Assembly (NCBI GenBank): GCA_902386555.1
Contig: CABMJJ010000009.1
Location: 275,680-339,679, forward strand
DNA: 64,000 nt
Direction: 5' to 3'
Origin: Candidatus Bilamarchaeum dharawalense
GTDB taxonomy: Archaea; Micrarchaeota; Micrarchaeia; Anstonellales; Bilamarchaeaceae
Shown here: in pieces, positions 210 through 19,065 of the stretch
How the letters are laid out: each line of letters begins with the position of its first letter
Position numbering within the stretch: position 1 is the first letter of the stretch
Notes under the pieces: generated by a model
Told to the model about the DNA's origin: nothing
What the model saw: only the letters and a program-made list of their open reading frames with translations
Database searches by the model: none
Position numbers and translations under genes: made by a program

Positions 210-1709
210 TTATGGACAAATGCTCGGAATACGAACATTCTTTGGGCAAATGTCTTTAGATTCTGGTTCATAGACCCGCTCTGAACCACTGTACCAATAC
301 CATTTGCTTAATTCGTGATCAAAATGCTCCCATATTATTTTACCATCTCGATAATGAAATCTGTTGTGGATGTAGGCATAATAAATGTCTCCAGAGATTT
401 GCCTTCCGATCATATCATTCATTTTTAGGGCTTCGGTGTGGGCAACATAGTAACCAAGTTCAATATCATTGAATGAATCCATACCGTAAACCAGTCGACC
501 TGCAAGAGGATGATCGCATTTCTTGCCAGGAATGGATGCACAGATAGACATTGCCTCTTTCTCATCAAGCCAATAATTTCGATCCTCGTCTGCATAGACC
601 AATGCTTGTGCTTCTAACAATTTTCTGTTAAGGTCTTGAACCTGGATTTCTTGTCTTATGTATCCCCAAACTGCCAAGGTGGTAACTGCAGCAGCTACCG
701 CAGCCACAGCTGCATATTTCAGCCCAGTTATCAATCTTTTCACCCAGTGTTTTTCAACGGCCTTTTTGTCGTATATACCTTCACCAGTATTGATGATGAC
801 TACGCGATCATCTGAACTAAATCCATAACTAAAAGCACCAGCAAATCCTGCAGCTGCTGATGGTTCTGAGTGAATTCCAAGCTCTTGTAATCTTCGATAT
901 GCTCTAAGGATTTTACCATCGCTCACAGTAAGTAGATTCAATCGTCCAGACCTAACCAGATCATCTGCCATTTCATGGTAAGGAGTACAGGGTGCAGTAA
1001 GCTTATCAGCCACGCTTCTATCCCGCTTTTTTGAAAACTCACTGCCAAGTGCAATTGCATTTTTTGGCGTTGTGACGCCAATAATTAGTGGAGCATTACT
1101 TCCCCAAATTCTTCTTGCTTCAGCCTCCAGCTCAACAACCAATTCACCACTACCAATTGGACAAATTAAATGAGTCGGAGGCAGGGTTATACCTTTAGCT
1201 GCTAAATCTTCTTGGATTTCATGAACAATATTGCCATACCCTTGAGGAAGTTTATAGCTTTCAACCATCCTTATTTGTTCATCGCTACAACTAGTCAATT
1301 TTCTTGCAATTTCACGCATTTCTTCTTGAGTGACTTCGTGTTTGCTAAGGTCCATCTCATGAACAATGGAACATTCACGCAATCGATCTTTTACAACTCT
1401 AGGAATATCTTTTGAAACGATATTTACAACTTGAATACGGAAATCTTTCCAGTCTTTTCCTTCAGATTCTGCTAGCTGTTTTGTTAATTCGCCAGTGCTG
1501 AGACCCGAATTGCCACAGGTAATGTGAACCAGCACCGCGCTCTCGTCTGGTTTAATGGTAGCTAGCAAAGCCTCGCATCGCCTATCCTTATGGGTACCTG
1601 AAATTTCATTGGCGCTTTCATCTTTGATAAAAACCTTGGCTCTATGACATAGGCCTGAAATCTGGTGATACTCACGTAGAGGCGTATGACCTATTCTAAG
1701 TTGTCTCAT
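210..1709 (-). CDS. PLP-dependent beta-family (threonine/cysteine synthase-like) protein with TM segment and extra C-terminal domain
   Basis: FIKDESANEISGTHKDR (PLP-lysine type motif), ITCGNSGLS, then hydrophobic segment LKYAAVAAVAAAVTTLAVWGYI and ~150 aa C-terminal region. Confidence 0.75.
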   Translation of the reverse strand: MRQLRIGHTPLREYHQISGLCHRAKVFIKDESANEISGTHKDRRCEALLATIKPDESAVLVHITCGNSGLSTGELTKQLAESEGKDWKDFRIQVVNIVSKDIPRVVKDRLRECSIVHEMDLSKHEVTQEEMREIARKLTSCSDEQIRMVESYKLPQGYGNIVHEIQEDLAAKGITLPPTHLICPIGSGELVVELEAEARRIWGSNAPLIIGVTTPKNAIALGSEFSKKRDRSVADKLTAPCTPYHEMADDLVRSGRLNLLTVSDGKILRAYRRLQELGIHSEPSAAAGFAGAFSYGFSSDDRVVIINTGEGIYDKKAVEKHWVKRLITGLKYAAVAAVAAAVTTLAVWGYIRQEIQVQDLNRKLLEAQALVYADEDRNYWLDEKEAMSICASIPGKKCDHPLAGRLVYGMDSFNDIELGYYVAHTEALKMNDMIGRQISGDIYYAYIHNRFHYRDGKIIWEHFDHELSKWYWYSGSERVYEPESKDICPKNVRIPSICP

Positions 1710-1798
1710 ATCTCTCCATACTTATTGTGGTTGTTTGTGTTTTTAAATGTTAGTTTTTATGCAATCTAGTGGAAAATGGAGAAAGTGTTTAAAAATAG

Positions 1799-2503
1799 AT
1801 GGATATGGAGCAAATGTTTAAATATGGTTTTAGACAGAATAGGCTTATGAAATTCTGTGAAATAGGAGTTTACCATCATGATTGTTGGTTTACTGATGCC
1901 ATAAACAAGTTCCCAGAATTACAGGTTAGAGAGATCAGTGCACGCATTTGCGAATTGGGCTCTGGAGTGAAAATAAACAGAGCAAGTTATCGTATTTTTA
2001 CCCCAAATAAGGAATGTATTGGGGCTTTTGTAAATCAAATTTCTTCTTCTGTATCCGAGGCAAAGGTATTAGCTTCTGACGCTGCAACTGCATTGGTGGA
2101 AGTCACCTGGAAAGCGTCTAAAACATCTTATGATGCAATTTTGGGAAGTGGCTGTGCAGTAACTTCTGCTTGCTATGGAAAAGACGGTTACGAAACATAT
2201 TCGTTATTCACAGACACCCCAGATGAAACCCGAAAATTACTTGGTGAGTTGGAGCAGATTGGCGAGGTTAGGACATTTTCCATAAAAAATACTCCAAATG
2301 GCAATCGAAAGTTCGGGCTTACGCCAAAACAACAGCAGGCGATTGTTTCTGCAATATCCATGGGCTATTATGAATGGCCAAAGCAGGCCAATTTGGAAGA
2401 ATTGGCAGCTAGGCTTGGAGTTAAACGCAGAGCATTGCAGGAAAATTTGAGAAAAGCAGAAAGTAAGGTTCTTGGCGGAATGCTGGACCAGCTCCATATG
2501 TAA
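1799..2503 (+). CDS. Bacterio-opsin activator-type HTH transcriptional regulator
   Basis: C-terminal LTPKQQQAIVSAISMGYYEWPKQANLEELAARLGVKRRALQENLRKAESKVL, HTH_10-like; similar layout to 17000..17716. Confidence 0.75.
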   Translation: MDMEQMFKYGFRQNRLMKFCEIGVYHHDCWFTDAINKFPELQVREISARICELGSGVKINRASYRIFTPNKECIGAFVNQISSSVSEAKVLASDAATALVEVTWKASKTSYDAILGSGCAVTSACYGKDGYETYSLFTDTPDETRKLLGELEQIGEVRTFSIKNTPNGNRKFGLTPKQQQAIVSAISMGYYEWPKQANLEELAARLGVKRRALQENLRKAESKVLGGMLDQLHM

Positions 2504-2558
2504 TTTTACTGACATATGTCAGTTCATTCTTATATCTTCAGAAATCCCGAATTATTCT

Positions 2559-4130
2559 ATGAAAGAACTGGACAAGGAATGGAAAACAACTTCGCGATTG
2601 GTCTTGGGAGGAGAGGTTGGCGAATTAGAAGATTTCAGAGAATGGTTAATCGAACTTAACAACCCGAGATTTGTAAAAAAATCCTCCGTTTCAGGTAAGG
2701 AAACTGTCTTTTCCAGCAGCGAATATCAAGAAGGTTCCAAATTTCTAACCATGGATGAGATATCATCAAACCAGAGGTTAGACCCACTGGATATTAACGA
2801 CATAAAAGATATTGATTCCATATTGAATGCAGTCCGGGAGAGAGTATCCTATTGTGGAAATGTCATACTAGGTAATTCTAAGTTCATAGAAAAAAGCTCC
2901 AACATAACCAATAGTTTCTACGTCTACGACTCTGTTAAAATCAGCGATTGTAAAAACATTGCTTGCTCCCAATATCTTCGTCTTTGTGAAAATATTTTTG
3001 GAACAAATGAGGGCGGAGAATCCGAATATTGCATACGTTGCTGCATACTCTTCAAGAACAGCAGAAGTTTTGAACTTTGGAAAAGTACCAATTGCTCTGA
3101 TTGTTATTACTCTTTTGGGCTTGATGGCTGCAAGGATTGCATCTTTTCATTCAATCTTCAAGGTAAAAACCATGTGATCGGAAACCTGGCGCTTCCCAAA
3201 GACAAATATTTGGATATAAAGAAAAAGCTACTTGGCGAAATGAGAGAGCAACTTATAAAAAATAAAAAACTACCTTCGCTTGTTGAATTAGTATCAACAA
3301 CAGAGCCGGATTATGGTGAAGTGGCTACGCATGTGCCAGAATACCATGATGATCTGGCAGCAGATAGAGAGGCAGTGGATGCAGCTTTCACAAAAACATC
3401 AGAGTTGTTATTTTCTAGACCTTTATCTGGCAGAATGGATGACTATGATGGATGGCTACGGTCACATAATATCGTGCCTTATTCTGTAAAATCAGTACTT
3501 AGCAAAAGAACTGTCCAGCTATCGCAATGGCCAGGACTGTCCCAATTGCCAAAAAATAGGATAGTAACCGTAGAAGAGGCTAGAGCAATCTCCAGATTGG
3601 CAATTACCCCAGAACAAGTGGAGAGAATATCTTTGGCAAATGTACCGGAGTTCGTAGGAAAGATAGCCTATTTTCCACCTGAAGAGAGGACAGGAACAAA
3701 CTCCAACCTAATCGAATGCCAATGGGGGTCTTCGGCAGCAAATTGCTATCGTTCGGTGATTTGTGTTTATAGTAAAAATTGCGGATACTGCTCCTGGCCA
3801 AGAAGTTCGGAAAATTGTTTTGGTTGTGGAATTGTTTTTGATTCGAACTTCTCCATGAAATGCTACGACTCGGTAAAACTTTCAAGATGTTTTGAATTGG
3901 ACTCCTGCTCTTCATGTACCGACGTTTATTTTGCCCATAATTGTGAAAATGTCAGAGACAGTATGTTCTGTTTTAATGCAAAAAATCTAAAAAATGCCAT
4001 AGGCAACATGCAGCTTCAGCCGGACCAGTACAAGAAACTCAAATCTGCAGTCCAGAACCAGCTCTGGGATGAATTGGAATCGAAAAAAGACCTAGATTTG
4101 AGTGTTTTCTCGATGGGTGTTGTAAAATGA
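2559..4130 (+). CDS. Cys-rich repeat protein, fused N-type + C-type halves
   Basis: Start placed at MKELDKEWKTTSRLVLGGEVGELEDF within ORF 2472..4130; N-half ends CIFSFNLQGKNHVIGN, C-half contains YCSWPRSSENCFGCG and MFCFNAKNLKNAIGN. Confidence 0.8.
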   Translation: MKELDKEWKTTSRLVLGGEVGELEDFREWLIELNNPRFVKKSSVSGKETVFSSSEYQEGSKFLTMDEISSNQRLDPLDINDIKDIDSILNAVRERVSYCGNVILGNSKFIEKSSNITNSFYVYDSVKISDCKNIACSQYLRLCENIFGTNEGGESEYCIRCCILFKNSRSFELWKSTNCSDCYYSFGLDGCKDCIFSFNLQGKNHVIGNLALPKDKYLDIKKKLLGEMREQLIKNKKLPSLVELVSTTEPDYGEVATHVPEYHDDLAADREAVDAAFTKTSELLFSRPLSGRMDDYDGWLRSHNIVPYSVKSVLSKRTVQLSQWPGLSQLPKNRIVTVEEARAISRLAITPEQVERISLANVPEFVGKIAYFPPEERTGTNSNLIECQWGSSAANCYRSVICVYSKNCGYCSWPRSSENCFGCGIVFDSNFSMKCYDSVKLSRCFELDSCSSCTDVYFAHNCENVRDSMFCFNAKNLKNAIGNMQLQPDQYKKLKSAVQNQLWDELESKKDLDLSVFSMGVVK

Positions 4131-4221
4131 CCAACCAGTTTTTGAGTACTTTTTCCAGGGGTTCGAGGAGATCTACCCCTAACCAACCAGTTTTGGGGGC
4201 ACCCTTTTCCAAAAGGGTGCC
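4131..4221. repeat. 12-bp direct repeat CCAACCAGTTTT (4131-4142, 4183-4194) bracketing hairpin AGGGGT-N12-ACCCCT, followed by perfect hairpin GGCACCCTTTT-CC-AAAAGGGTGCC (4198-4221)
   Basis: Direct reading; the first repeat begins immediately after the TGA stop of the upstream gene. Confidence 0.8.
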
Positions 4222-4284
4222 AAAACCGTTCTACAGCGGCATCAGAGATATATATTTCAAAGATGAGATAATTGGTGTGGGAAT

Positions 4285-6477
4285 ATGGAAGTAAGAGAAA
4301 TACACCTCTATTCTGAAAAAATAGAGGACGATGATGTCAAGAACCTGTTCAATAGGGTAGTGAAATCCAAGTTCCCACTTTTTGGTTTTATTAGTCTCTC
4401 GGACTTTTTTTCATTAAATGCACTTACTTTAGTCGTAAAAAGGAATATTAATACTGTAAAATTTTATGCAAAGGAAAAGGATTGCCTTCAGAATATCTCT
4501 CCACTTATTTTCCCCTACAGGATGTGCGATCCTAGCCTCCTGAAGTTGTCTGAAGGCTCCTATTTCCCAATACCTGGGATGTATGTTATCAACGGAGCAC
4601 AGCATGACCTCCTGGATTTCATTCTAAAAGAAAAAATAGAACAGATGACGCTTAACATAACCAAGGTCATGGGCCAGTTTATTGCCAGTGGAACAGTGGT
4701 AAAGGAAAGCGGCCAGAAGGGCATATTTGTTGTTCTGGCTCCTCAAAAATTCTTGAACATTAATCTGGAAAAAAATCCATCCATCTATATAGAACTGCTG
4801 GAACCGTTGCCAAAACAGATTTACATGAGTTCCAAATACCCTGTTTTCGAAGAGACCGGGGTTAGCATGGGCGTGGACAACTATGATCCGCTTCAACACA
4901 CCATCATAGCTGGAACTTCAGGTTCTGGAAAAAGTAAGGGTCTTTTTGTACTTTTGAAGGCATTGGAAGCAAAATACAAGGACAACACAAGAATTGTTGT
5001 GGTTGATCCACATGGAGAATTTGCCAAATTATTTCCACATGCCAAAATAATCAATTTTATTGACAATTATATTGAACCGTTGGATGTTGGGCGGGACAAG
5101 TCACCCATGCTTACTCAACTTGTTTCACAGTTGATTACATCTTCTATTGGCCAGGAGAACAAATATTCTGAAAGGGTATTATTCTACACTGTTCACCTTC
5201 TCTCATCAATAAACAAACTGGATTTGAACAACATTAGCTTGCTCCTTACAGATTCTTCAGTTAAAGCAGAGTATGTTAGCATGTGTGACAATGACGAGGT
5301 AAAACGATTTTTTGATGAGGAATATAATGACATTCACATTCATCATTTCAACAATGCAATTTTACCGATTTTGAACTTTGTGGGTGAATATCAATTATAC
5401 TTGGGCAAGGAAAAGAAACGAGAGGGGCTTCTAGAAGCCATTCAGCAGAACAGGATTACAGTGGTTGCTTTTGACCCTAAGTTTTTCGGAAGAAGAATGA
5501 TAAGTTTCCTTGCTGGCGCGGTCATAAACCAGATGTATATTTTAGCCATTACTGGAAAATTAATGGATAAACCAACTGTCCTTGTGGTGGACGAATTCCC
5601 AAGAGTGGAGACTAGAGTTACCAAGGATATTCTCTCAGAGACAAGAAAATTCAACCTGTTTGCCTACCTTTCCTGCCAGTACCTGGGCCAGCTTAGTAAG
5701 GAGGTTCTTGATTCCATTGTATCCAATGCAAGAAACATCATTGCATTCAAGATAAACAGACAGGATGCTACCATGCTCAGCTCGATTATGGAAATAAAAG
5801 TCGAAGAATATTTCAAAAAACACAGAGCTACCACCGAACTGGAAGAATCCAAAAAAGAAATGTTCGTACGACTGCACCAAAGGGAGTGTATTGTCCGTTT
5901 GTTTGATGGTGTGAAGTACCTGTTACCCATGAAACTGAAGATAGTGGATGCAAGAAAGTGGGGGTTAAGAGAAGGGGCAGATCCATATGTGGAAAGAACA
6001 CCACCACCAGAAGCACCGGGCGTATTACGATCAAAGCCAATGGAAAATGCATTTGTGAATCAAGCACCCCAGGATAGCGAACGGCACCTGCCTCCAGCAC
6101 AACCATTGCCACGAATGTCAGTTGCACAACAAAAAGGAGAGGAACCGCCACGAACCGAGGCACCCATAGACAGCGCAACAGGACTTTATTGTGTAGCAGA
6201 AGAAGGCGAAAAACCACCCGGAGAGGAAAAAGAAGAAAAACCAGACCTCCCGGAACCAATGACAGACAGTCCATGGTTACAGGAAACCCCAGATGCTATT
6301 TATCAACTGGGAAAGGCCAAGATGAATGGGGATGTGCCAAAGGAAGCTGAGACGATCATAAAAAAGGATGACAACCCATCTGCAACAACACCGTCCGAAC
6401 CAGAAACTGCGCCAAAAACCACATCAAAAGAAGATAAACCAAAAAAACCAGTAAAGAAAGCCAAGAAAAAAGAATAA
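4285..6477 (+). CDS. HerA/VirD4-type (FtsK-HerA superfamily) P-loop ATPase with Pro/Lys/Glu-rich C-terminal tail
   Basis: Walker A IIAGTSGSGKSKG, VVVDPHGEF, Walker B TVLVVDEFPRVE, SCQYLGQL ... SNARNIIAFKI; ~170 aa low-complexity charged tail. Confidence 0.8.
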   Translation: MEVREIHLYSEKIEDDDVKNLFNRVVKSKFPLFGFISLSDFFSLNALTLVVKRNINTVKFYAKEKDCLQNISPLIFPYRMCDPSLLKLSEGSYFPIPGMYVINGAQHDLLDFILKEKIEQMTLNITKVMGQFIASGTVVKESGQKGIFVVLAPQKFLNINLEKNPSIYIELLEPLPKQIYMSSKYPVFEETGVSMGVDNYDPLQHTIIAGTSGSGKSKGLFVLLKALEAKYKDNTRIVVVDPHGEFAKLFPHAKIINFIDNYIEPLDVGRDKSPMLTQLVSQLITSSIGQENKYSERVLFYTVHLLSSINKLDLNNISLLLTDSSVKAEYVSMCDNDEVKRFFDEEYNDIHIHHFNNAILPILNFVGEYQLYLGKEKKREGLLEAIQQNRITVVAFDPKFFGRRMISFLAGAVINQMYILAITGKLMDKPTVLVVDEFPRVETRVTKDILSETRKFNLFAYLSCQYLGQLSKEVLDSIVSNARNIIAFKINRQDATMLSSIMEIKVEEYFKKHRATTELEESKKEMFVRLHQRECIVRLFDGVKYLLPMKLKIVDARKWGLREGADPYVERTPPPEAPGVLRSKPMENAFVNQAPQDSERHLPPAQPLPRMSVAQQKGEEPPRTEAPIDSATGLYCVAEEGEKPPGEEKEEKPDLPEPMTDSPWLQETPDAIYQLGKAKMNGDVPKEAETIIKKDDNPSATTPSEPETAPKTTSKEDKPKKPVKKAKKKE

Positions 6478-6501
6478 TAAACTTCTTCAGGAGGTAGTCT
6501 A

Positions 6502-7524
6502 ATGGCGCTAACCCAGACAGAAGAAAAATTATTACGTTCCATAGTTGTACGTTCAGAAAACGATCCGGAAAATCCTGAGTTTCCGCCTAAAACCCCTAAA
6601 TTTCCAGCAACACCAACCGGTAAGATAAAAGTTCCTGGTTTCTCGAATGTGTGGTTAAAGGACGAAAGCTTCAACCCAACAGGTACGCATAAGGACAGGA
6701 TGGCCTGGGAGATAGTAGTCACCTATAGAAGATTTCTTCTTGCAAAAAAACTAGACCAGATGCATGGACCATTGCCGCAAATGTCCATAATATCTTCAGG
6801 ATCAGCAGCAATTGCAATACAAAGCATGTTGAAGGAGTATCGTTTGCCGAACCTAAAAGTATTGATAGATAAGAACATGGAACATGGGATTATCACTTCA
6901 ATGAAAAAAATAGGTTGTGAAATTTACAAAACAGATTTGAGTGTAAAGGAACTTGATTGGAAAGACATTCTGGAACTAACCAATAATCCAGATGGATATG
7001 ACATAACATCCAATGAAGCATTGGATCCGAGTACACGATTTTATGACTGGTTGAGTTACGAAGTAATAAACAACTCACCGGATTATTGTTTTGTGCCCTT
7101 TGGAACGGGAAAATTATATGAAAACATATTGAATGTTAACAAAAAAGAAGTTTCAACAACCAACCACGACCCAAGATTCAGAGGTCAAGTGAACACCCTA
7201 AGAAAGTGTAATTTCCTTGGTGCAACTACAAATAATCCAAACACCAAGGCGATAAAATTATACTCCCAACATTTGCCATTCGTTCATTATGATGAGCAAT
7301 GGATCAGATTATACCATGATTCTGCCTTTTGCGGTCCTGAAACTAGTGTCCATTTACTTAAGGAAGGTTATCTTGATGATGCCATAGATATTGCAGAAGC
7401 CAACAATGTCAAATGTGAATATTCTGGCATTGCCGGACTTGCATTGATGCTCCAGCTTGGAACATACCTGCCAAAAAACAAAAAAATGCTTATCGTAAAC
7501 ACTGGAAAGACGAAATATCCATGA
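6502..7524 (+). CDS. PLP-dependent beta-family enzyme (threonine/cysteine synthase-like)
   Basis: VWLKDESFNPTGTHKDRMAWEI, SSGSAAIAIQSML, C-terminal LIVNTGKTKYP. Confidence 0.75.
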   Translation: MALTQTEEKLLRSIVVRSENDPENPEFPPKTPKFPATPTGKIKVPGFSNVWLKDESFNPTGTHKDRMAWEIVVTYRRFLLAKKLDQMHGPLPQMSIISSGSAAIAIQSMLKEYRLPNLKVLIDKNMEHGIITSMKKIGCEIYKTDLSVKELDWKDILELTNNPDGYDITSNEALDPSTRFYDWLSYEVINNSPDYCFVPFGTGKLYENILNVNKKEVSTTNHDPRFRGQVNTLRKCNFLGATTNNPNTKAIKLYSQHLPFVHYDEQWIRLYHDSAFCGPETSVHLLKEGYLDDAIDIAEANNVKCEYSGIAGLALMLQLGTYLPKNKKMLIVNTGKTKYP

Positions 7525-9090
7525 TCAAAGAGAATAGATACTATTATTGATTTTTTTGTCTTTTTCTAGTTTTTTGTTAATCTCATCCAGCACTTTTTTC
7601 TTAATTTTCAAATATTGCTCTCGTCCAACTTCCACATTACCTATGGCATATCGTTTACCCTTTATATTAAAACAAAACATGCAGTTAGACAGGCCTTCGC
7701 AATTATGACAGAACATGGAATCTGAACAATCCCTGCAGTTATCCATCTCAAAACATCTAACAAGTTTTTGAGAGTGATAGCAGGTTATGCAGAAGCTAGA
7801 ATCAAAAAGAGTGTCAAAGCCAAAGCAATTTTCTGAATTTTTTGGCCACATGCCACACCCGCAGTATTTGGATTTGACAACTGCAGATGCTTTGTAACAA
7901 TGTGCCGCATTCACAGTGACAGTAGATTCGATGAAATTCTCCACATTTCCCTCTCGAATATCCACTGTAAAGTAGGCAAGCTTGCCAATGGACTGGTGAA
8001 TATTATCCAATCGGATATTCTCTGCCTCCTCCTTGCTAAATTTCACTGTCTCACCAATCTGCCAGGCTTCATCCATGGTTACCACCACATCTTTTGGAAG
8101 AGCCTCTAGCGCGATAACATAGGGAAGCATAAGAAGTCTTTTGCCGCTGATTGCTGATTTTCTCTCCTCGATCTTATGGGCGTGGGTGTAAAGCCAGTCA
8201 TCGTAATCATCAATTTTAGTTAGTTGCTTCCCAAGCACAACAGCGGAAGTATTAGTAAAAGCATCTTCAATGATTTTTTTATTCTCAAATACCTTTTGCT
8301 CTGGTTTTGGAGTAAAATTTGGCTTTTGAAGCTTGGCTTTTTTGGTGATATCAAGCAGAGATGGAAGGGATTTGTTCTGCTTCAAACAATCAACCATTTG
8401 TTCCAAGAGAGATTTTTTGATGGATAGATATTTGTCTCGGTCGATTTCAAGATTTCCAATGCAATATTTTTTGTTTTTTAGGTGAAATGAAAAGAGACAG
8501 TTTGAACAGCCATTGAGATTTGAAATGTAATAGCAGTCAGAGCAGTTTTGAGCAGACCAGACCTCAAAAGAACGCTTAACTGCAAACGTCTGAGTACAGC
8601 GTATACAAAATTCTGTGTCCCCAGGACCGTGAACACCAAAACAATTACTACTGTCTCGTCCAACTGTACAGTAGGCAAGGTATTTGGAATTCATGAATTG
8701 GGCAGTATCGGTCACAAAATGGCAATCAGTAAGATTTGCACTTCTTTCCACATGGCTTGAATTGCCTAGGACAGTGTTCCCACAATAGTAAACCCTATCA
8801 GAAATGGCCTGGGTGAGAGATTCAAGATCTTTTATTTCATTGATATCAAGCTCGAACTTTTGGTTAAAGTTCACTTCGTCAAAACTGATGAACTTTGCAT
8901 TTTTGGGGTATTCTTTTATGGAAAATGCAACATCCTTCCCAGATACATTGGATTTTCGAATAACATTGGAATCGATCAGGCCGGAAAGCCATTTTGAATA
9001 ATCCGTGAGTTCGCCTACTTCCTGACCGAAAAGAAGATTGCATGTCTTTTTCCAGGATTGGTTCAGGATGGTATAGGTTTCAGATGCCAT
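7525..9090 (-). CDS. Cys-rich repeat protein, fused N-type + C-type
   Basis: Two copies of LG..G.L.DY..WL ... SGK ... Cys-rich ... IGNxxxxRxxYLxIKK. Confidence 0.8.
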   Translation of the reverse strand: MASETYTILNQSWKKTCNLLFGQEVGELTDYSKWLSGLIDSNVIRKSNVSGKDVAFSIKEYPKNAKFISFDEVNFNQKFELDINEIKDLESLTQAISDRVYYCGNTVLGNSSHVERSANLTDCHFVTDTAQFMNSKYLAYCTVGRDSSNCFGVHGPGDTEFCIRCTQTFAVKRSFEVWSAQNCSDCYYISNLNGCSNCLFSFHLKNKKYCIGNLEIDRDKYLSIKKSLLEQMVDCLKQNKSLPSLLDITKKAKLQKPNFTPKPEQKVFENKKIIEDAFTNTSAVVLGKQLTKIDDYDDWLYTHAHKIEERKSAISGKRLLMLPYVIALEALPKDVVVTMDEAWQIGETVKFSKEEAENIRLDNIHQSIGKLAYFTVDIREGNVENFIESTVTVNAAHCYKASAVVKSKYCGCGMWPKNSENCFGFDTLFDSSFCITCYHSQKLVRCFEMDNCRDCSDSMFCHNCEGLSNCMFCFNIKGKRYAIGNVEVGREQYLKIKKKVLDEINKKLEKDKKINNSIYSL

Positions 9091-10616: not shown

Positions 10617-11395
10617 TGCCCCACATTGAAAATGTTTAATTTCAGGCCTTTTGTTTGCTCCAGTTCCTTGTGAATGTAGCCCAAAACCATTTGTTTTATC
10701 TCCATATACCTGTCTCTGCCAACTTCTACATTGCAGATGGCATACCTCTTGGCTTTTACATTAAAGCAGAACATGCAATTGTTCAAATTCTCGCAATTAT
10801 GGCAGAACAGGGAATCGGTACAATTGGTGCAATCGCTCATCTCAAAGCAACGATTGAGATTTTCAGAATTGTAGCATTTAATACAAAACTGAGATGAAAA
10901 TGTGTAGAAGGTACCAATGCTGTAATCAGATTGTCTTGGCCAGAAGCAATAGTAGCAGTATTTTGATCGAACCATGGCAACGGATTTGTAGCAATAATGG
11001 GAAGAATAGTAGAAATCACAATCAATAAGGTTGCTGCACTCTCCATATTTGGTATTAGGAGTAACTGTGGACAGTTTTTGCAGAGTGTTTTTTGCATTGG
11101 AAAGATTTAGTTGTTCGAGATCAGCTGGGGAAAGCTGCTTTTTACCCTGGATATCATAGCCTTCTTCAATGGTAAGAATATTGTGTTTTATATCTCTGTA
11201 AAAATCAAATGGCGGAAGATAGATTTTCTCCCTACTCATCACTGACTCTCCATATTCATTTGTGGAAACATTTTCGGTGAGCCATTTTTCGTAGTCTCTG
11301 AAATTACCCAGTTTTTTTCCTAAAACAACTGACGTGATGGTTTGGAAAGTCTTCTCCAAATCAGCTTCTAACTTTGAATCAACCATTCCAATCAC
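10613..11395 (-). CDS. Cys-rich repeat protein, C-type half
   Basis: YCFWPRQSDYSIGTF, CHNCENLNNCMFCFNVKAKRYAICN. Confidence 0.8.
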   Translation of the reverse strand: MIGMVDSKLEADLEKTFQTITSVVLGKKLGNFRDYEKWLTENVSTNEYGESVMSREKIYLPPFDFYRDIKHNILTIEEGYDIQGKKQLSPADLEQLNLSNAKNTLQKLSTVTPNTKYGECSNLIDCDFYYSSHYCYKSVAMVRSKYCYYCFWPRQSDYSIGTFYTFSSQFCIKCYNSENLNRCFEMSDCTNCTDSLFCHNCENLNNCMFCFNVKAKRYAICNVEVGRDRYMEIKQMVLGYIHKELEQTKGLKLNIFNVGQ

Positions 11396-12167
11396 CTTTT
11401 CCGCTGAGAATCTGAATTACAGATGGTAGTTTTTTCTTTTTCTTCAATTCATCTGCAAATTCTTTGACCAATTTGGCCTTGAGACTAGCGTATTTGTCCT
11501 TTGCAAGTGGCACATTCCCAATGAGATAGTGTTTATTTCTTTGATTGAAGGAGAAGATGCAATTGGTGCAATCTTCAAGACTTGCCGAGTAATAGCTATC
11601 TGATGCAACGTTGCAGTGATAGGTTTCCAAGCATCTAATCTGTTTGTGTGGATCAAGGACTTTTATGCAGAATTGGATCTCTCCACCAAAACAGCATCCG
11701 AATGAATATTCGGGGCTGCGGATAGATGTTGTATAAGCAACATATTTCCCATCGTAAACATCCTGACAACCGATGGCATAGACAGTATTGACACAGCGAT
11801 GGGAATTGAGAATGTTACTTGAATTGCCCAAAACAATGTTTCCTGCATAAACCACCTTTTCCTTTGTAGCACGGACAAGAGAATCGATATCTTTGATGTC
11901 ATTTATGTTAAAAGGCAAGGAGGCGGTTTTTTTAGCATAGGCTTCCATTTCGTTGTGTCCAATAACCCTTGCTGTTTTCGGAACCCGATTGGATGAGATG
12001 GTAACATCGGTTCCAGATAGGATAGATTTCCTTTTCACTATGGGATCGGTATAGATCTTGAGATAGTCAGCAAAACTGTTTAGATCTCCAATTTCTTCCC
12101 CAAGAAGAACTTTGCAAGTAGACCGCCAGGATTTGTCAAGTTGGGCCAAAATCAAAGTATCAGTCAT
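11379..12167 (-). CDS. Cys-rich repeat protein, N-type half
   Basis: Start refined to MTDTLILAQLDKSWRSTCKVLLGEEIG; NCIFSFNQRNKHYLIGN; ends LPSVIQILSGKGDWNG. Confidence 0.8.
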   Translation of the reverse strand: MTDTLILAQLDKSWRSTCKVLLGEEIGDLNSFADYLKIYTDPIVKRKSILSGTDVTISSNRVPKTARVIGHNEMEAYAKKTASLPFNINDIKDIDSLVRATKEKVVYAGNIVLGNSSNILNSHRCVNTVYAIGCQDVYDGKYVAYTTSIRSPEYSFGCCFGGEIQFCIKVLDPHKQIRCLETYHCNVASDSYYSASLEDCTNCIFSFNQRNKHYLIGNVPLAKDKYASLKAKLVKEFADELKKKKKLPSVIQILSGKGDWNG

Positions 12168-12960
12168 GTTTTTCACCTGGTTTCCCAATGGAGTAGATAT
12201 CAAAATCTAATGCTCTTGTTTTCATCAACTGGCTTGTGATTGTTTGTAAAAGAATTTTTTTCACGCGCATGTATTGCTCCCGCCCAACTTCTATATTTCC
12301 AATTGCATATCGTTTGTTTTTCACATTAAAACAAAACATGCAGTCGGTCAGGCCTTCGGAATTGTGACAAAACAAAATATCACTGGAATGGTAACAGCCG
12401 TCTACCTCGAATGCACGGGTAACTTTAACTGAATTGTAGGTATGGATACAGAATTGGGAATATGGGGTGTTGTGACAACCGAACATATTCTGGGAGTACA
12501 TTGTGTAGTTGGAATATGCCACGTTCTTTATGCCGCCATAAAGATCATCACCATAATAGAGAAACATACCGTCACCTGCACCGCCGCATTTGTCAACATT
12601 GGTATAGGTTCTCCACCGGTAGTTGCCAATCGCATAGGCAATTGGAGTAACTATTCGGGTCATCATGTCTTTGAGATCAGAACTTTTAATGTCATCAAAA
12701 GTAAATTTGGTTTGGTTTACCATGCCCATTTCTTCCATGGAAATTGATCGTTTTGTAGAAATTTTCCTTCCCATGAAGTTTAGTGTTGGAAAATTCCACA
12801 CGATCTTGTCACTAACTGCGGATTTGGCTGGATGGGGAAGTGGAATGTGTTTTCCAAGCCAAGAGCCATAATCATCAATACCACTAAGAGATTCGCCAAG
12901 AAGGATGCGGGTGGTATTTGAAAATTCCTTTTCCAGTTCAGGCCAGACCATTTTAGCCAC
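12160..12960 (-). CDS. Cys-rich repeat protein, C-type half
   Basis: CHNSEGLTDCMFCFNVKNKRYAIGNIEVGREQY. Confidence 0.8.
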   Translation of the reverse strand: MAKMVWPELEKEFSNTTRILLGESLSGIDDYGSWLGKHIPLPHPAKSAVSDKIVWNFPTLNFMGRKISTKRSISMEEMGMVNQTKFTFDDIKSSDLKDMMTRIVTPIAYAIGNYRWRTYTNVDKCGGAGDGMFLYYGDDLYGGIKNVAYSNYTMYSQNMFGCHNTPYSQFCIHTYNSVKVTRAFEVDGCYHSSDILFCHNSEGLTDCMFCFNVKNKRYAIGNIEVGREQYMRVKKILLQTITSQLMKTRALDFDIYSIGKPGEKHD

Positions 12961-13726
12961 CCCTCTCTTCGCCGATGATATCCATTATGGAAACTGTTCG
13001 GTGCTTTTTTTTCAAGTCCTGTGCCATTTCTGAAATAAGCTTTGCTTTCAAAGCAGCATACTGTTCCTTGCTTAACTGTACATTCCCAATCATGTTTCTT
13101 TTGGCATGCACATTGAATGTGAACATACAATCTGACGAACCGTTTGCATTATGGCAGAAATAACAATCAGAGCTGCTGACAGTAAGGCTACACTCAAAAC
13201 AGCGCTTAAGCGAATTGTTATAGAGACATCGTACCAGCATGGAACTGTCCCCACTTGAAGTTGAGGCAAAACAATAGTCGTTGTTTCTCAGCATGTAGCA
13301 GTAGGCGATATATTTTCCATTTACAATCATGGATGAATCCAGAACATAATTGCTATCTGTAATATTATCTGAATTTTCAACAAACTTCGAGTTGCCAAGC
13401 ACTTTGTTGCCACTGTAGATAAATTTTTCTTCAACTGCCTCAAAAAGAGAATCAATGTCCCTGATCTGGTTAACATCAATTGGTTTTGATAGGATGGTTG
13501 CACCAGTGATTTCGTCATTGTAATCAAAGAATTTGGCTTCTTTAGGATAATGATTGGAAGTAACGAATATGTTTTTTCCAGAAATAATGGATTTCACTGA
13601 TTTGCCAACCAGTGGTTCTTTCAAATAATCATAATAGTCCTTCATCTCACCCAATGGCTCCCCGAATAGTACTTTTGTTGTTGATTTCCAAGACTGATTA
13701 ATTACATCATAAGCTTTGTCCGCCAT
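12953..13726 (-). CDS. Cys-rich repeat protein, N-type half
   Basis: VINQSWKSTTKVLFGEPLGEMKDYYDYL, SIISGKNI, CMFTFNVHAKRNMIGN. Confidence 0.8.
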   Translation of the reverse strand: MADKAYDVINQSWKSTTKVLFGEPLGEMKDYYDYLKEPLVGKSVKSIISGKNIFVTSNHYPKEAKFFDYNDEITGATILSKPIDVNQIRDIDSLFEAVEEKFIYSGNKVLGNSKFVENSDNITDSNYVLDSSMIVNGKYIAYCYMLRNNDYCFASTSSGDSSMLVRCLYNNSLKRCFECSLTVSSSDCYFCHNANGSSDCMFTFNVHAKRNMIGNVQLSKEQYAALKAKLISEMAQDLKKKHRTVSIMDIIGEERGG

Positions 13727-15306
13727 AGTCTCTTCCTCCCTCCACCGAGAGTAAAGATATCCAAACCAAGTTCCTTATTTTTTTCAAGTTCATCAAGAAT
13801 CTGGTTCAGTACTGCTGCTCGTATGGATTTGTATTTGTCTGGTGCAAGTGCACCGTTGCCAATTGCATAGCGTAGGTTTTTTGCATTAAAACAGAACATA
13901 CTGTCTCTGACATTTTCACAATTATGGGCAAAATAAACGTCTGAGCAATTGTTGGAGGCATCTACTTCAAATGCTCTGGAAAGATTAACCGAATAATATG
14001 TGTGAAGACAGAAACTGGAGGTGAATGAAAGCCCGCAGCCATACATATATTTTGAATTTCTTGGCCAGTAGGAAAATGCAACATTATCATTGAAAGATGC
14101 AATTGGACAGTAATAGCAATTTACTGAAGTATTGCATAATGGAACAACAATAAGATTTTTTGTTTCTCCAAGCTGGCCTTCTGGATTGAAATATGCTATT
14201 TTGCCAATTGATTTTGACAGACTAGAGATCGAATCGATGTCTTCAACATCAAGTTGCATGTTTTCGCCCAACTCCCAGTTCTCCCATTGCGTGACCAGAC
14301 GATCTCTGGAATAAAGATGGAACGGGGATGTTTCACCAAGATAGACGGTTTTTCCACTTGCCAGGGACTTTTCCTCGCTGATGTGGGGGACATGCCTCAG
14401 AAGCCATTCCTTGTAATCATCAATTTTTTCTAGTTGCTTGCCAAAAAGTAATGATGTTGTTTTCTGGAATCCCAATTCAATTGGTTCTTTGTTCTTCTGA
14501 TCCCTATCACCGGAAGGACTGAACCCTTTTGGAACCTCTAGTGCCTTGCAGCTTTTGGATGCGAATTCCATAAGCGACGGGAGTTTTTTCTTTTTTTCAA
14601 ATTCGCCTCTCAATTCCTCAAGAAGTTTTGCCTTTAGAGACAGGTATTTATCTTTTGAAAGTTGGATATTGCCAATAACATTTCGCTTGTTCTTTAGATT
14701 GAATGAGAATAGAACATCTTGAGAGCCCTGGACACATGAACTGAAATAGCAGTCACTTGAATCATAGCACTTCCAAGCTTCTAGACATCTTGATTGCTTA
14801 TGGGTTTCAAATGCCCTTACGGTGCTGGTAGTGAAAGCATCGCTGACTACACCAAAAAGATATTTGCTTCCTCTACAATAGGAGCAGTATGCCATGTATT
14901 CTGAATCATAGATAAAATTGGAATTGTAAACATAAAATGAATTCTGAACGTCGGAACTCTTTTCCACATGCTTGGAATTAGCAAGAACAACATTGCCACA
15001 GTAATAAAGCCGTTCTTCTAAGGCATCTAAAATCGAATCTATATCTTTTACCTGGTTAATGTTCAATGGCTCCTGTTTTTTCCCATAATCAACTTCGTCT
15101 AATGAGAGGAATTTGGCATTGTCAGCATAGTCTGAGACTGCACAATACACTTCTTTTCCCGAAAATGCAGACTGTTTGTTTTTAAGTGGAACAAGACCTT
15201 CAGAAAGCCAATCTGCATAATCGTCAATATCACCAACTTCCGCACCAAGAAGAACTTTCATGGTTGATTTCCATGAACGATTAATTGCATCCTTTGTTTG
15301 GTTCAT
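13702..15306 (-). CDS. Cys-rich repeat protein, fused N-type + C-type
   Basis: Two half-domains; second has FSYWPRNSKYMYGCG and MFCFNAKNLRYAIGN. Confidence 0.8.
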   Translation of the reverse strand: MNQTKDAINRSWKSTMKVLLGAEVGDIDDYADWLSEGLVPLKNKQSAFSGKEVYCAVSDYADNAKFLSLDEVDYGKKQEPLNINQVKDIDSILDALEERLYYCGNVVLANSKHVEKSSDVQNSFYVYNSNFIYDSEYMAYCSYCRGSKYLFGVVSDAFTTSTVRAFETHKQSRCLEAWKCYDSSDCYFSSCVQGSQDVLFSFNLKNKRNVIGNIQLSKDKYLSLKAKLLEELRGEFEKKKKLPSLMEFASKSCKALEVPKGFSPSGDRDQKNKEPIELGFQKTTSLLFGKQLEKIDDYKEWLLRHVPHISEEKSLASGKTVYLGETSPFHLYSRDRLVTQWENWELGENMQLDVEDIDSISSLSKSIGKIAYFNPEGQLGETKNLIVVPLCNTSVNCYYCPIASFNDNVAFSYWPRNSKYMYGCGLSFTSSFCLHTYYSVNLSRAFEVDASNNCSDVYFAHNCENVRDSMFCFNAKNLRYAIGNGALAPDKYKSIRAAVLNQILDELEKNKELGLDIFTLGGGRKRLWRTKLMM

Positions 15307-16868
15307 TTCATCCCACCTATTGTGAAAATGCTAAACCGGCAGTTCTTCTTCTGGAGAATTTCTGAACTAAGCTGCTCAAGAACAGATTCTTTGATTTTTG
15401 AATAATCAGCTTGGGGCAGGGATGTGTTCCCGATGGCATGTCGCTTACCTTTCACATTAAAACAAAACATCGAATCAGTTAGCCCTTCTGAATTATGGCA
15501 AAACAATGCATCTGCGCATTTGGTAGAGGTATCAACTTCCAAACAGCGGCTTAGGTACAGAGAATTATGGCAGTTGATGCAGAATTCAGAATTCATATTG
15601 CGGTAGCCACCAAAGATATACTTGGAACTGAACGCTGACGATATGACCCCCAAATTCTCGCTTTGAACAATGTCAAAGCCCTTGTAGATATTATTTGTGT
15701 AGTAGACCAAAGGAGACTGGATCGTGTTTTTGTTTACGCCATCCAGAATTTCTACTGAGAAATAGGCAATCTGACCAAGCTGGGAAGTGATGGAATCAAT
15801 CGACCCTAGAGCAGACTGGTCCATGACGATCTTGCCCAGTTCCAGCCCTTCGTTTAAAGTCACAAAAAGGTCTTTTGGAAATAATGAAATGGCATAAAGA
15901 TCTGGATGGGAGGGACGGTAGGTTGTGCTGCCAAACATGGTTTGTATTGGTTCCATCTTCATTTTTTCAGAGGCAAGCCAGTTTTCATATTCTGTGATTG
16001 ACCCCGGCTCTTTTTTCAGAATAATTTTGAAGGTGGATGCAAAACTTTTCTCAATGGGTTTCATATCACTGCTTTCCTGTTTTTTTGGAACAGAAATTGG
16101 AGGTTTTTTTCCAGATTTGCTTCTGTTTACAAGTTCAAACAATGATGGATATTTTTTGTTGGTTTTTAGCGACTGGATAACTTCGGAAAGAAGTTTCTTT
16201 TTCAAGTCAAAGTATTTATCTCGTGAAAGTTGGACATTGCCTATCTTGTGTTTCTGGTTTCTTTGAAAAAAGCAGAACATTAACTCGCTAGAATTCACGC
16301 ATTGGTTTGAAAAGTAAAGATCGCTACAATCACCAATAATATGACTTTCGAAAATTCGCTTGCAATTGAATCCGCCGAAAAACCGTATGGTAAATTCTGT
16401 CTTCCCAAACCAGCCTGATCCGAAAATGTTCTTGCTACCAAGGCGGATAAGCGAGGAATAGAAGACATTTGTCGATTCTGAGACATTCAAAGAATTTGCA
16501 ACATAATTGGAATCCATCACAAGATCAGATGATTCTACGAATTTTGAATTTCCTAGAACTCTGTTACCGGTGTAGGCCCATTCCTCTGAAACTGCACGAA
16601 CTAGAGAGTCTATGTCTTTGATATCGTTGATGCTTAATGGTTTGGATGTTGAGATTTCATCTGCTGAGATTACGTTTGCCAACTTAGAATAGTCTGATGC
16701 AAGGTAAACTTCCTTGCCAGAAATAGCAGATTTAGAAATTTGTGGTTTGGGGCAGTATTCTGCCAACCAGTCCTCATAGTCTCTAAGCTCGCCCAGTTCC
16801 TCTCCTAGAAGAATCTTGCACGTAGACTTCCAGGATCGGTTGAGTGCTGAGTAGAGCTCGGAATTCAT
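15303..16868 (-). CDS. Cys-rich repeat protein, fused N-type + C-type; first ORF of the minus-strand array
   Basis: Two half-domains; ATGA overlap (15303-15306) with next ORF. Confidence 0.8.
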   Translation of the reverse strand: MNSELYSALNRSWKSTCKILLGEELGELRDYEDWLAEYCPKPQISKSAISGKEVYLASDYSKLANVISADEISTSKPLSINDIKDIDSLVRAVSEEWAYTGNRVLGNSKFVESSDLVMDSNYVANSLNVSESTNVFYSSLIRLGSKNIFGSGWFGKTEFTIRFFGGFNCKRIFESHIIGDCSDLYFSNQCVNSSELMFCFFQRNQKHKIGNVQLSRDKYFDLKKKLLSEVIQSLKTNKKYPSLFELVNRSKSGKKPPISVPKKQESSDMKPIEKSFASTFKIILKKEPGSITEYENWLASEKMKMEPIQTMFGSTTYRPSHPDLYAISLFPKDLFVTLNEGLELGKIVMDQSALGSIDSITSQLGQIAYFSVEILDGVNKNTIQSPLVYYTNNIYKGFDIVQSENLGVISSAFSSKYIFGGYRNMNSEFCINCHNSLYLSRCLEVDTSTKCADALFCHNSEGLTDSMFCFNVKGKRHAIGNTSLPQADYSKIKESVLEQLSSEILQKKNCRFSIFTIGGMK

Positions 16869-16999
16869 GTACTACTACGCTCTGTAACTATATAATAGAA
16901 TAACACCGTTGTAGGACGGTTTTGATTTGATTGAGGGATTCGGAAACCCCTTCAACCCCACATTCAATCGACTCGAACGCAGATTACAAACCCCGAAAA

Positions 17000-17716
17000 T
17001 CAACGCATTACTCTGAGTATATCATTCAAAACAGGGAGAAGTTTTTTCTCTGCTTTTCTTAAAAGTTCAGCACAAGTTGATGGACTAATCCCAAGCTTTT
17101 GCGATAATTCTTCAATGCTTATCTTTTTTGGTTCCTCGTAATAGCCATACCTGCAGGCAAGATCAAAAACTTCCATTTGCCTATCAGTTAGAAGTTCGCT
17201 GGCAAATTTTAATTTGCTAAAACCCGAGGTACGGAAACTATCTAAAGAAACTGCCTGGGATGGTTCTAAATATCGCTTTGACTTGATTTTAAGATCATAA
17301 CCGTGTTCCTTAACCAGTTCCATGAAATCTTTCAAATTTTTGAAATTTGGGGCAAGCATGGTAACATAGTCTACTCCCGCCTCGGTATAGGTCGGCTCAA
17401 TCCACATTGTTTTTGTCTTGGCTAAGGCAGGTGCAGTGGCAAGATCTTTACTTTGTCTTATGGAGAGTTGGGATTTGTGAGGACCGATTAGGATTATCGA
17501 TACTTCTTTGACCTTTGTTTGCCTTTTCCATAGATCAACCACTGTCCTAAGATGAGAAGTGTCCACTTCGAAAAGGTTGGTAATTGTTTTTTCGTCCTGA
17601 CCAATAGTTGCCAACCACTTAATTTTTACATCCTTAAGCTTGTCAGTTACTGCAATAGAAGTACAGTCATGGATTTGTTCCAGTTCAACAATAAGTGGCT
17701 GCGTCTTCTCGCTCAT
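17000..17716 (-). CDS. Bacterio-opsin activator-type HTH transcriptional regulator
   Basis: LTDRQMEVFDLACRYGYYEEPKKISIEELSQKLGISPSTCAELLRKAEKKLLP. Confidence 0.8.
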   Translation of the reverse strand: MSEKTQPLIVELEQIHDCTSIAVTDKLKDVKIKWLATIGQDEKTITNLFEVDTSHLRTVVDLWKRQTKVKEVSIILIGPHKSQLSIRQSKDLATAPALAKTKTMWIEPTYTEAGVDYVTMLAPNFKNLKDFMELVKEHGYDLKIKSKRYLEPSQAVSLDSFRTSGFSKLKFASELLTDRQMEVFDLACRYGYYEEPKKISIEELSQKLGISPSTCAELLRKAEKKLLPVLNDILRVMR

Positions 17717-17747
17717 AAAATAGATTCGCAGGATCGATTTTTATAGA

Positions 17748-18884
17748 TTAGCTGGCTGCCCGGAAAGCGGGTCGCTTTATAGGAAGTATAGTCTCGCCAG
17801 AATTTCGATGTGGTTTAATCCTTCTGCAATCTTCAGCAAATGCTTCTCGTGCTCTCTTGCAAACATTGTCACAAATCCAGCCAGGTTCTTTTTCTCTTCC
17901 AGAATTAAGCCAGGCTTTTTCTTCGCGGACCATGTGTTCAAGCATAAGACGGAGGTTGGATACAATTTCACCAAAGCTATGGCCATATACATTTCCTTCA
18001 AAAAAATCAGGATTGGTAAAAGTCGTAGAGCCACAAAAAGTTAGATTACCCGTAGGTGTTAAACGAAGCTTAACACGGGATAAATCAGACAGGCCTTTTT
18101 CAGATTTTTTAAATGCTTGATAGACTTCGGGTTTTACAAGAGTATGATCAGATAAAAAGCTTGGAAGATCACAAGCTCGGCCAGTTGGTCTGAGTGATTT
18201 ATTAACAATTTCAACATCAAGAAACGGTTTTGTAAGAATCCTTGGACTACCATCAGGATTGTGACGTCTTCCCTCTTCAAAAACAGCAAAATGGTCTCTG
18301 ATCCAGAGCCAGAGGGGAGTTTGAAAAAGTTCTGGTTGAGTAAGATGAAGGAAGTCGGCACGAAGTAGCGGATCCGAAGGTAGATGCTCTTCAGGAAAGC
18401 AAAGTAGTTTTAGAGCTAATTTATCAGGAAGCATACCTCCAAATGTAAGCAGGGCTTGTCTGATTCTATCATCATGACCAATACAGCCATAGGGATGGTG
18501 AGTAACCTCAAGATGGACCTGTCGCCCCATTAGTCTAATTTCTTCTACTGCATCTGCAAATCTTTCAAAATCCAGATGGGGATTCAGACCGCCACTAAGA
18601 AGATTTATACGGCCTACAAATTGAGCAAGCGCAAGCATGAATCCAGGTAAATCGCTGTGATAGGTAGGATCTCCACCACCCAACAAATTCAGAACTTTCC
18701 TTCTATTTAACGGATTTGATTGGGTATGGGGAACAAACAAACCAGATTGGAATAGCTGGACAACATCTTCAGTTGGTAATTCTTCACCCTTATGTTTGCT
18801 GTTCTCTGCACAATGACGACAACCATTACAACAGCTAGAAGTTGGATCAATCTGATGGATGGTAAGGGATTTTGGTTCGTCCAT
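17748..18884 (-). CDS. Radical SAM-like protein
   Basis: N-terminal SCCNGCRHC (C-x3-C-x2-C), NLLGGGDPTYH, LLSGGLNPHLD, C-terminal Cys cluster CDNVCKRAREAFAEDC. Confidence 0.7.
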   Translation of the reverse strand: MDEPKSLTIHQIDPTSSCCNGCRHCAENSKHKGEELPTEDVVQLFQSGLFVPHTQSNPLNRRKVLNLLGGGDPTYHSDLPGFMLALAQFVGRINLLSGGLNPHLDFERFADAVEEIRLMGRQVHLEVTHHPYGCIGHDDRIRQALLTFGGMLPDKLALKLLCFPEEHLPSDPLLRADFLHLTQPELFQTPLWLWIRDHFAVFEEGRRHNPDGSPRILTKPFLDVEIVNKSLRPTGRACDLPSFLSDHTLVKPEVYQAFKKSEKGLSDLSRVKLRLTPTGNLTFCGSTTFTNPDFFEGNVYGHSFGEIVSNLRLMLEHMVREEKAWLNSGREKEPGWICDNVCKRAREAFAEDCRRIKPHRNSGETILPIKRPAFRAAS

Positions 18885-19048: not shown

Positions 19049-19065
19049 TTCGGAAAGTGATTTTT

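Follow-up and report, generated by a model that had tools for sequence, protein, structure and literature searches.

A conserved gene pairing of a HerA/VirD4-type ATPase with a putative cysteine-rich solenoid family in Micrarchaeota

HerA-family motors are genetically tied to a non-motor partner in the HerA-NurA, HerA-DUF4297 and HerA-SIR2 modules, and the same kind of tie is seen for a HerA/VirD4-type ATPase encoded in the 64,000-nucleotide stretch of Candidatus Bilamarchaeum dharawalense DNA analysed here (the window). In the known modules the tie is also physical, with the HerA ring acting as an assembly platform (PMC11291478). The ATPase core is also common to the VirD4/TrwB coupling proteins, through an alignment of 280 residues (204–489) with the TrwB_AAD_bind domain, and to CedD as a local match; unlike these systems, no transmembrane segment is present and no other secretion or DNA-import genes are conserved alongside. 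Assignment to the end-resection pair HerA-NurA was rejected because NurA lies 34 kb off at 40334–41035 and four other DUF87 proteins of the genome score higher. The anti-phage pairs HerA-DUF4297 and HerA-SIR2 were rejected because the partner contains no nuclease or SIR2 domain by Pfam, PADLOC or NCBIfam, and a T4SS coupling protein (VirD4/TrwB) because there is no N-terminal transmembrane region and no VirB or relaxase family recurrent in the loci.

The original prediction combined a Cys-rich array, two PLP enzymes, a large P-loop ATPase, a radical-SAM-like protein and two HTH_10 regulators into one undescribed gene system. All of the ORFs it listed were found in place, and the PALP, HTH_10 and HerA/VirD4-type ATPase calls are supported by Pfam. 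The radical-SAM-like ORF also exists, but its family match is weak and falls under the cut-off (Table 1).

Table 1. Features of the locus, with positions in the window
Feature	Position	Strand	Evidence
PALP1: PLP beta-family domain, one transmembrane helix, C-terminal domain	210..1709	-	Pfam PALP 92.9 bits vs 35
HTHa, HTH_10 regulator immediately upstream of g1	1799..2503	+	Pfam HTH_10 67 bits
g1, fused N+C, paired with HTHa; nearest is the stand-alone locus L055 (also with HTHa)	2559..4130	+	
HerA/VirD4-type core ATPase of 730 aa, putatively a cytosolic motor	4285..6477	+	Pfam, conservation, co-occurrence
PALP2, passenger PLP enzyme	6502..7524	+	Pfam PALP 63 bits
g2, fused N+C, predicted structure pLDDT 85.0	7525..9090	-	
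g2 C half: ten 12-residue coils, residues 372–491	7618..7977	-	period-12/period-3 analysis
g2 N half: ten 12-residue coils, residues 100–219	8434..8793	-	period-12/period-3 analysis
g3C solenoid half	9080..9865	-	
g3N solenoid half, predicted structure pLDDT 88.9	9840..10616	-	
g4C solenoid half	10613..11395	-	
g4N solenoid half	11379..12203	-	
g5C solenoid half	12160..12960	-	
g5N solenoid half	12953..13726	-	
g6, fused N+C solenoid protein	13702..15306	-	
g7, fused N+C halves, first of the nine-gene array	15303..16868	-	
TATA-like TTATATA, ~24 nt upstream of the g7 start codon	16889..16895	-	read directly
HTHb, HTH_10 regulator, heads main array	17000..17716	-	Pfam HTH_10 71 bits
Radical-SAM-like protein, passenger	17748..18884	-	Pfam 25.0 bits vs cut-off 29.5 (weak)

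The ATPase matches DUF87 with 41.6 bits (2e-10; cut-off 23.2) and TrwB_AAD_bind with 34 bits (2e-8). The Walker A (GTSGSGKS) and Walker B (VLVVDEF) motifs are intact and conserved in a 19-row alignment, which together with the DUF87-type domain above its curated cut-off places the protein in the HerA/FtsK superfamily. Identity to its relatives is 48–72%, and the C-terminal tail is charged and variable. No strong or N-terminal transmembrane segment was identified, the maximum 19-residue hydropathy being 1.1–1.7. Scores against NCBIfam models are far under the curated cut-offs, and a sequence search of solved structures returned no relative of the ATPase, of either PLP protein or, with a family profile, of the Cys-rich proteins.

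The gene-neighbourhood check that had been proposed for partners of the Cys-rich family was carried out on 295 Micrarchaeota genomes and identifies the ATPase as a partner: 49 genomes contain both, four the Cys-rich family only, two the ATPase only and 240 neither (Fisher p=1.4e-48). Within the genus of the window the two are present together in six genomes and absent together in 11, with none holding one alone. The Cys-rich proteins and the ATPase thus form a near-obligate pair in Micrarchaeota. A solenoid gene adjoins the ATPase in nearly all ATPase-bearing loci, very divergent lineages included, and this adjacency persists in genomes where the ATPase model scores just 1e-50 to 1e-90. The smallest module, found in divergent lineages, is one ATPase with a single solenoid protein of ~240 aa; minimal modules comprise the ATPase with one half (L114, L120), with an N and a C gene (L115, L118) or with one fused gene (L116, L117). 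Two genomes (G003 and G009) hold an ATPase with no solenoid gene detected nearby, and an independent function of the ATPase is therefore possible. Between related loci solenoid genes are gained and lost and the ATPase is better conserved, with 97.9% identity against 85.8% for the solenoid proteins in one comparison and 72% against at most 56% in another. The Cys-rich family and the ATPase together are best described as a conserved, previously undescribed gene system; searches of the open-access literature on Micrarchaeota HerA, type IV secretion, and Cys-rich or multigene families found no mention of it.

The Cys-rich array is composed of ten ORFs that resolve into seven N-type and seven C-type homologous halves (four fused proteins and three split pairs). 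Nine of these ORFs form an overlapping minus-strand series (7525–16868), preceded by a TATA-like element that is a possible promoter of the array's own, and the tenth (g1) lies apart. The window devotes ~11 kb to the family, and other Micrarchaeota genomes hold up to 36 candidate copies each. The paralogues are old: for only eight of 112 solenoid proteins does the closest relative come from the same genome. Antigenic variation through recent duplication or gene conversion was rejected, since the paralogues do not group by genome.

Each half contains ten ungapped 12-residue repeats, with 93–96% of the cysteines at every third position, where they exchange with Ser, Ala, Thr or Val. This pattern points to a solenoid core rather than to metal ligands or modification sites: most likely the protein is a narrow beta-solenoid with cysteines lining its core. 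One face of the solenoid is conserved (phases 4–5, mean entropy 1.2–1.5 bits) and another is variable (phases 7, 8, 10 and 11, 2.0–2.8 bits, with middle coils up to 3.9). A variable exposed face is widespread among proteins and alone does not prove recognition. The C-terminal tail [DNS][IV][YF]x[LIVM]G is conserved in 65 of 90 solenoid proteins, and a search for transmembrane or signal segments in them and in the ATPase found none. The Cys-rich ORFs have no match in Pfam, NCBIfam or PADLOC. The predicted models of g2 and g3N, whose solenoid part is of only moderate confidence, gave nothing at E<=0.001 with Foldseek against PDB and BFVD, and their best VIA-align Z scores of 4.1 and 6.1 are too low for a claim of shared fold. 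The profile of a phage family without an assigned function (PHROG 15341) matches g1 and other members weakly and with partial coverage (1.6e-5); at the loose limit the model also matches in four of 14 control genomes, so the match may be a compositional Cys/Ser effect. No relative was found among viral contigs and phages, which leaves a viral origin without evidence. Cys-rich proteins of CPR bacteria annotated as "caib/baif family" are possible relatives, and an exact-pattern scan with a motif of these bacteria gave one hit, L110, which is uninformative, and yielded no relative.

Regulators lie directly upstream of 21 of 85 solenoid operons, as HTH_10 on the same strand or tandem AsnC in divergent orientation, compared with 12 of 759 other genes (p=1e-14); tandem AsnC regulators account for ten divergent upstream positions. 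The HTH_10 regulators are recurrent accessories of the system. They had been described as lying near each border of the array, but they are not simply border markers: HTHb heads the main array, a position kept in L073, L078, L084, L085, L090 and L093, and HTHa pairs with the separate g1, as in L055. PALP1 has the features of a PLP fold-type II (PALP) protein, with the Lys of THKDR kept and the Schiff-base lysine column invariant in the alignment, and an EF-hand-like loop (DEDRNYWLDEKE) was read by eye in its C-terminal domain. An assignment to threonine synthase proper was rejected, with 34 bits against the equivalog cut-off of 421 (PRK05638). PALP1 stands beside the system in one family only and is a recurrent, lineage-specific, membrane-anchored accessory. 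PALP2 copies are 57–70% identical and occur mostly in genomes that do not have the system, and the radical-SAM-like protein is present in one of 295 genomes, that of the window; both are passengers outside the system. Of the proposed gene set, then, the Cys-rich family, ATPase, HTH_10 regulators and PALP1 recur together, and PALP2 and the radical-SAM-like protein do not. Arrays free of these neighbours had been named as a sign of accidental proximity; this pattern is seen for the latter two proteins and not for the ATPase. The system may, tentatively, be viewed as a two-part core with lineage-specific accessories, namely HTH_10 or tandem-AsnC regulators and the membrane-anchored PLP protein.

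Co-occurrence, adjacency, the minimal module, the two halves, the 12-residue repeat, the conserved and variable faces, old paralogues, regulator pairing and the lack of transmembrane or signal segments are all features established by analysis of the sequences. The most likely reading, though an uncertain one, is a single cytosolic motor working with a set of specialised solenoid adaptors that are old and in many cases have a regulator to themselves. The ATPase would assemble into a ring, as is typical for its family, and act in the cytoplasm as a common motor or hub; a HerA ring working with a non-motor partner is established for DUF4297-HerA (PMC11291478). Solenoid proteins would dock on it through the conserved solenoid end and face, and the variable face would recognise different client molecules. 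A single motor could thereby serve many client-specific adaptors, and a dedicated regulator would switch many of the adaptors or small operons. Hexamer formation, physical contact, the adaptor role and client recognition are all steps that we infer. The solenoid proteins could alternatively be substrates rather than adaptors.

A defence or secretion-like system driven by the ATPase was the second suggestion of the original prediction. Somewhat unlikely is a role in defence or conflict, in which the complex of ATPase and solenoid proteins would detect or block incoming DNA as HerA-based anti-phage modules do, and the solenoid repertoire would supply the specificities. The ATPase weakly matches anti-phage HerA and mad8 models, presence is patchy with turnover of copies, and some arrays (L037, L091, L097) contain or adjoin genes for nucleotidyltransferase (DUF6036) and AbiEi/AbiEii toxin-antitoxin proteins. 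However, no nuclease or other effector domain is conserved with the pair, the solenoid proteins have no PADLOC match, and the paralogues are old and stable rather than products of rapid local duplication. The location is also in part vertically inherited, as the G003 ATPase adjoins the same purA-DHH-prefoldin genes as in L073 and L085. Export of the solenoid proteins by a VirD4-like ATPase, or of DNA or protein with them, would make the arrays its substrates, comparable to the substrate arrays that ESX systems carry next to their ATPase. The TrwB_AAD_bind alignment, a best plasmid match to a T4SS DNA-binding-domain protein, the single ATPase facing many diverse paralogues, the conserved C-terminal tail as a potential signal, and PALP1 adjoining the system are consistent with such translocation, which is nevertheless improbable: the majority of coupling proteins have a transmembrane region and this ATPase does not, the loci have no conserved neighbour encoding a pore or pilus, and PALP1 does not extend beyond one family.

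An amino-acid or redox role, with Lrp/AsnC-type and HTH_10 regulators sensing amino acids or redox state, PALP1 acting on an amino acid and the solenoids serving as stress or storage scaffolds, leaves the near-obligate motor ATPase unexplained and involves a PLP protein that, unlike the ATPase, is confined to one family. It is very unlikely, even though the tandem AsnC regulators and the PLP beta-family protein recur beside the solenoid family and Ser and Cys make up 14% of solenoid residues. The original prediction also suggested that PLP and radical SAM enzymes modify the Cys-rich scaffolds or load them with metal or sulfur. The Cys content of 2.5–5.8% and the CxxC spacing fit this suggestion, which is now scarcely credible: the radical-SAM-like protein is confined to the window's genome, PALP2 is independent of the system, and the cysteines are limited to one residue in three of the repeat and replaceable there. 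A metal-binding or RiPP scaffold was likewise rejected, as Ser, Ala, Thr or Val take the place of Cys at core positions and the radical-SAM-like protein is not co-inherited.

Left-handed beta-helix proteins (LpxA, GlmU, gamma-carbonic anhydrase) stack coils of short strands, as predicted for the solenoid family, often with a C-terminal helix cap, and provide the best VIA-align matches at Z 5–6 (max 6.1; rmsd 2.3–3.2 over 111–125 residues); with Z under 8 and no sequence match, kinship is not claimed. The solenoid coils differ in having 12 rather than 18 residues and a Cys/Ser ladder every third residue. The Tenebrio-type insect antifreeze solenoid has a 12-residue coil with inward residues, including Cys, at every third position; its likeness to the family is in coil geometry alone, with no sequence or database match. 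Because the solenoid family has a near-obligate motor partner, its function becomes testable. The small genomes of carriers (0.7–2.0 Mb) commit a noticeable coding share to this one undescribed family, which would add a multigene family with per-copy regulators to a phylum rich in symbionts, about whose modes of interaction and defence little is known. Compared with the described HerA modules, the ATPase here matches VirD4/TrwB as well, and its partner is a solenoid family that has no recognised enzymatic domain and whose paralogues can number in the tens, many having regulators of their own. The system may be an archaeal "one motor, many recognition modules" machine, a cautious proposal in which a HerA/VirD4-type motor would work with diversified, individually regulated 12-residue-coil solenoid adaptors, possibly in genetic conflict or host interaction; it would bring a new class of partner for HerA/VirD4 ATPases and, among solenoids, a family whose coils are unusually small.

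The source genome of the window is a 1.27 Mb Micrarchaeota genome that is 88% complete. Every ORF of the original prediction is present, and Pfam agrees on the two PLP beta-family proteins, the two HTH_10 proteins and the HerA/TrwB-like ATPase. The product of rSAM, described earlier as radical-SAM-like, does have a Pfam match of that kind, though it falls under the Pfam cut-off. Searches with NCBIfam and PADLOC placed the two PLP proteins (PALP1 and PALP2) far under all threonine-synthase cut-offs. The Cys-rich proteins had zero matches in Pfam and gained no identity from NCBIfam or PADLOC, while PHROGs provided a single weak match to a family of unknown function. CPR proteins annotated 'caib/baif' may be bacterial relatives of this family.

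Features of the window and of related loci
Feature	Location	Strand	Length (aa)	Remarks
PALP1	210-1709; L090:12401-13870	- (window)		PLP beta-family domain, one TM helix, EF-hand-like loop, Cys residues nearby; membrane-anchored PLP protein of unusual type, three copies in L090
HTHa (HTH_10 regulator)	1799-2503	+
g1 (Cys-rich)	2559-4130	+
ATPase (HerA/VirD4-type)	4285-6477	+
PALP2	6502-7524	+
Nine-gene Cys-rich array	7525-16868	-
HTHb (HTH_10 regulator)	17000-17716	-
rSAM	17748-18884	-
Gene next to rSAM	19030-20166
LAGLIDADG_3 protein	20150-21151	-	333	Free-standing; adjoins DNA-ligase-like gene; same position in L093, 50% identical
Tandem Lrp/AsnC-like regulator	26183-27148	+	321	7 kb past the system, no adjoining Cys gene; same kind divergently upstream of Cys genes in L043, L052, L061, L108
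Ankyrin-like repeat protein	28626-29792	+	388	Three similar units (by eye)
Predicted surface protein	35609-40234	-	1541	Parallel beta-helix type repeats (by eye); Asn-rich; TM segment at C-terminal end
NurA nuclease	40235-41290	-		Pfam NurA, 50 bits at 40334-41035; far from the ATPase of the array; candidates for canonical HerA elsewhere in genome
AbiEi/AbiEii pairs and DUF6036 nucleotidyltransferases	L091:7988-9204; L097:942-2158; L037:12399-13542; L091:3929-4729			In or beside Cys arrays of other genomes
Tyrosine-recombinase-like protein (cluster c13)	L042, L080, L107			Near Cys/ATPase loci in three genomes (by eye)

The ten Cys-rich ORFs are composed of seven N-type and seven C-type halves of approximately 260 aa each, which are mutually similar; four of the genes fuse an N half to a C half, and in three further pairs the N and C halves are separate, adjoining genes. 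The lengths of 177 relatives from 75 loci fall mostly into two peaks (~251-281 and 513-562 aa), which makes the half and the N+C pair the family's units. Nine of the ten genes overlap each other, as one operon would, and a TATA-like box lies ~24 nt ahead of the first ATG of this series.

The 295 Micrarchaeota genomes searched for both, whose assemblies are incomplete and for which at most ~5 candidates were scored per genome, contain the Cys family in 53 cases, the ATPase subfamily in 51 and both in 49 (p=1.4e-48, a figure inflated by shared ancestry). The Cys gene copy numbers, which reach 36, count candidates. The coupling persists inside the window's family (20 genomes with both, one and zero with a single part, 20 with neither) and genus (6 with both, zero and zero, 11 with neither). 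Among divergent relatives, the gene directly beside the ATPase is a lone half in L114 and L120 and a fused gene in L116 and L117; an N half plus a C half adjoin it in L115 and L118, and several halves in L113. The ATPase occurs alone in two genomes; in one of these, G003, it has the same purA-DHH-prefoldin neighbours as in the complete loci L073 and L085, suggesting that the array was lost.

Among the 75 loci of relatives, the ATPase is found alongside Cys genes in 22, HTH_10 in 17 and PALP1 in 6, while PALP2 and rSAM, both proposed originally as array partners, are beside Cys genes in none. Copies of PALP2 are 57-70% identical and the majority are in genomes without the Cys family. The rSAM gene was found in the window's genome only, where it stands between HTHb and the gene at 19030-20166, a relative of which directly adjoins HTHb in L093. 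Full-length PALP1 is encoded by 10 genomes, each with the Cys family and the ATPase, and by eye several members feature an EF-hand-like loop in the C-terminal part past the TM helix. The order HTHb-array-ATPase-PALP1, with the ATPase convergent with the array and PALP1 divergent from the ATPase, is shared by six loci (L073, L078, L084, L085, L090 and L093). The window keeps this order plus two additions: PALP2 between the ATPase and the array end, and an HTHa-g1 pair situated between PALP1 and the ATPase. The nearest relative of g1 is the Cys protein of the stand-alone locus L055, where HTHa also adjoins, and thus the regulator and its target Cys gene seem to move as a unit. Of 85 Cys operons, 21 have a regulator immediately upstream, against 12 of the 759 other genes from these loci, a comparison with an approximate p-value because several loci share a genome; the 21 consist of 11 same-strand HTH_10 and 10 divergent tandem-AsnC proteins.

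In alignment A4, comprising 90 full-length Cys-rich proteins, both halves exhibit an ungapped 12-residue periodicity across ~120 residues. Autocorrelation of inward-type residues peaks at 12, with secondary peaks at each multiple of 3. Cysteine occupies a single residue-of-three class (93% in N, 96% in C), a concentration matched in 0 of 20,000 permutations, and interchanges there with Ser, Ala, Thr and Val. This pattern is predicted to represent the inward-facing ladders of a narrow beta-solenoid whose coils are 12 residues long. Two AlphaFold2 models (mean pLDDT 85.0 and 88.9) contain a helical N-cap, short strands in the repeat region, part of which is of moderate confidence only (pLDDT ~60-80), and a C-terminal helix. 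Coil phases 4-5 are conserved and 7-11 variable, and the most conserved part is the last coils ahead of the C-terminal helix.

Between related loci, Cys genes are gained and lost, and the Cys proteins diverge more than the ATPase does. Recent amplification or gene conversion of the array is opposed by the multi-copy genomes, where only 8 of 112 Cys proteins have their nearest relative within their own genome; the paralogues are therefore old, and the family is a set of long-separated types.

These facts point to a single conserved cytosolic motor working with many specialised solenoid proteins. The solenoid proteins may instead be export substrates, or the ATPase-solenoid pair may be a defence module; TA-type genes (DUF6036 nucleotidyltransferases, AbiEi/AbiEii) inside some arrays hint that the region is prone to conflict. 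HerA rings act as partner assembly platforms, as in DUF4297-HerA (PMC11291478), and the solenoid proteins are therefore proposed as adaptors of the motor, which would dock through their conserved coils while the variable face would recognise different clients.

Foldseek with the solenoid models gave no match at E<=0.001. By VIA-align, left-handed beta-helix enzymes match the model at Z 5-6, with ~111 model residues spanning ~160 target residues, near a 12:18 ratio. If the reading of the ATPase as a common motor with solenoid adaptors is wrong, the system stands further from known kinds.
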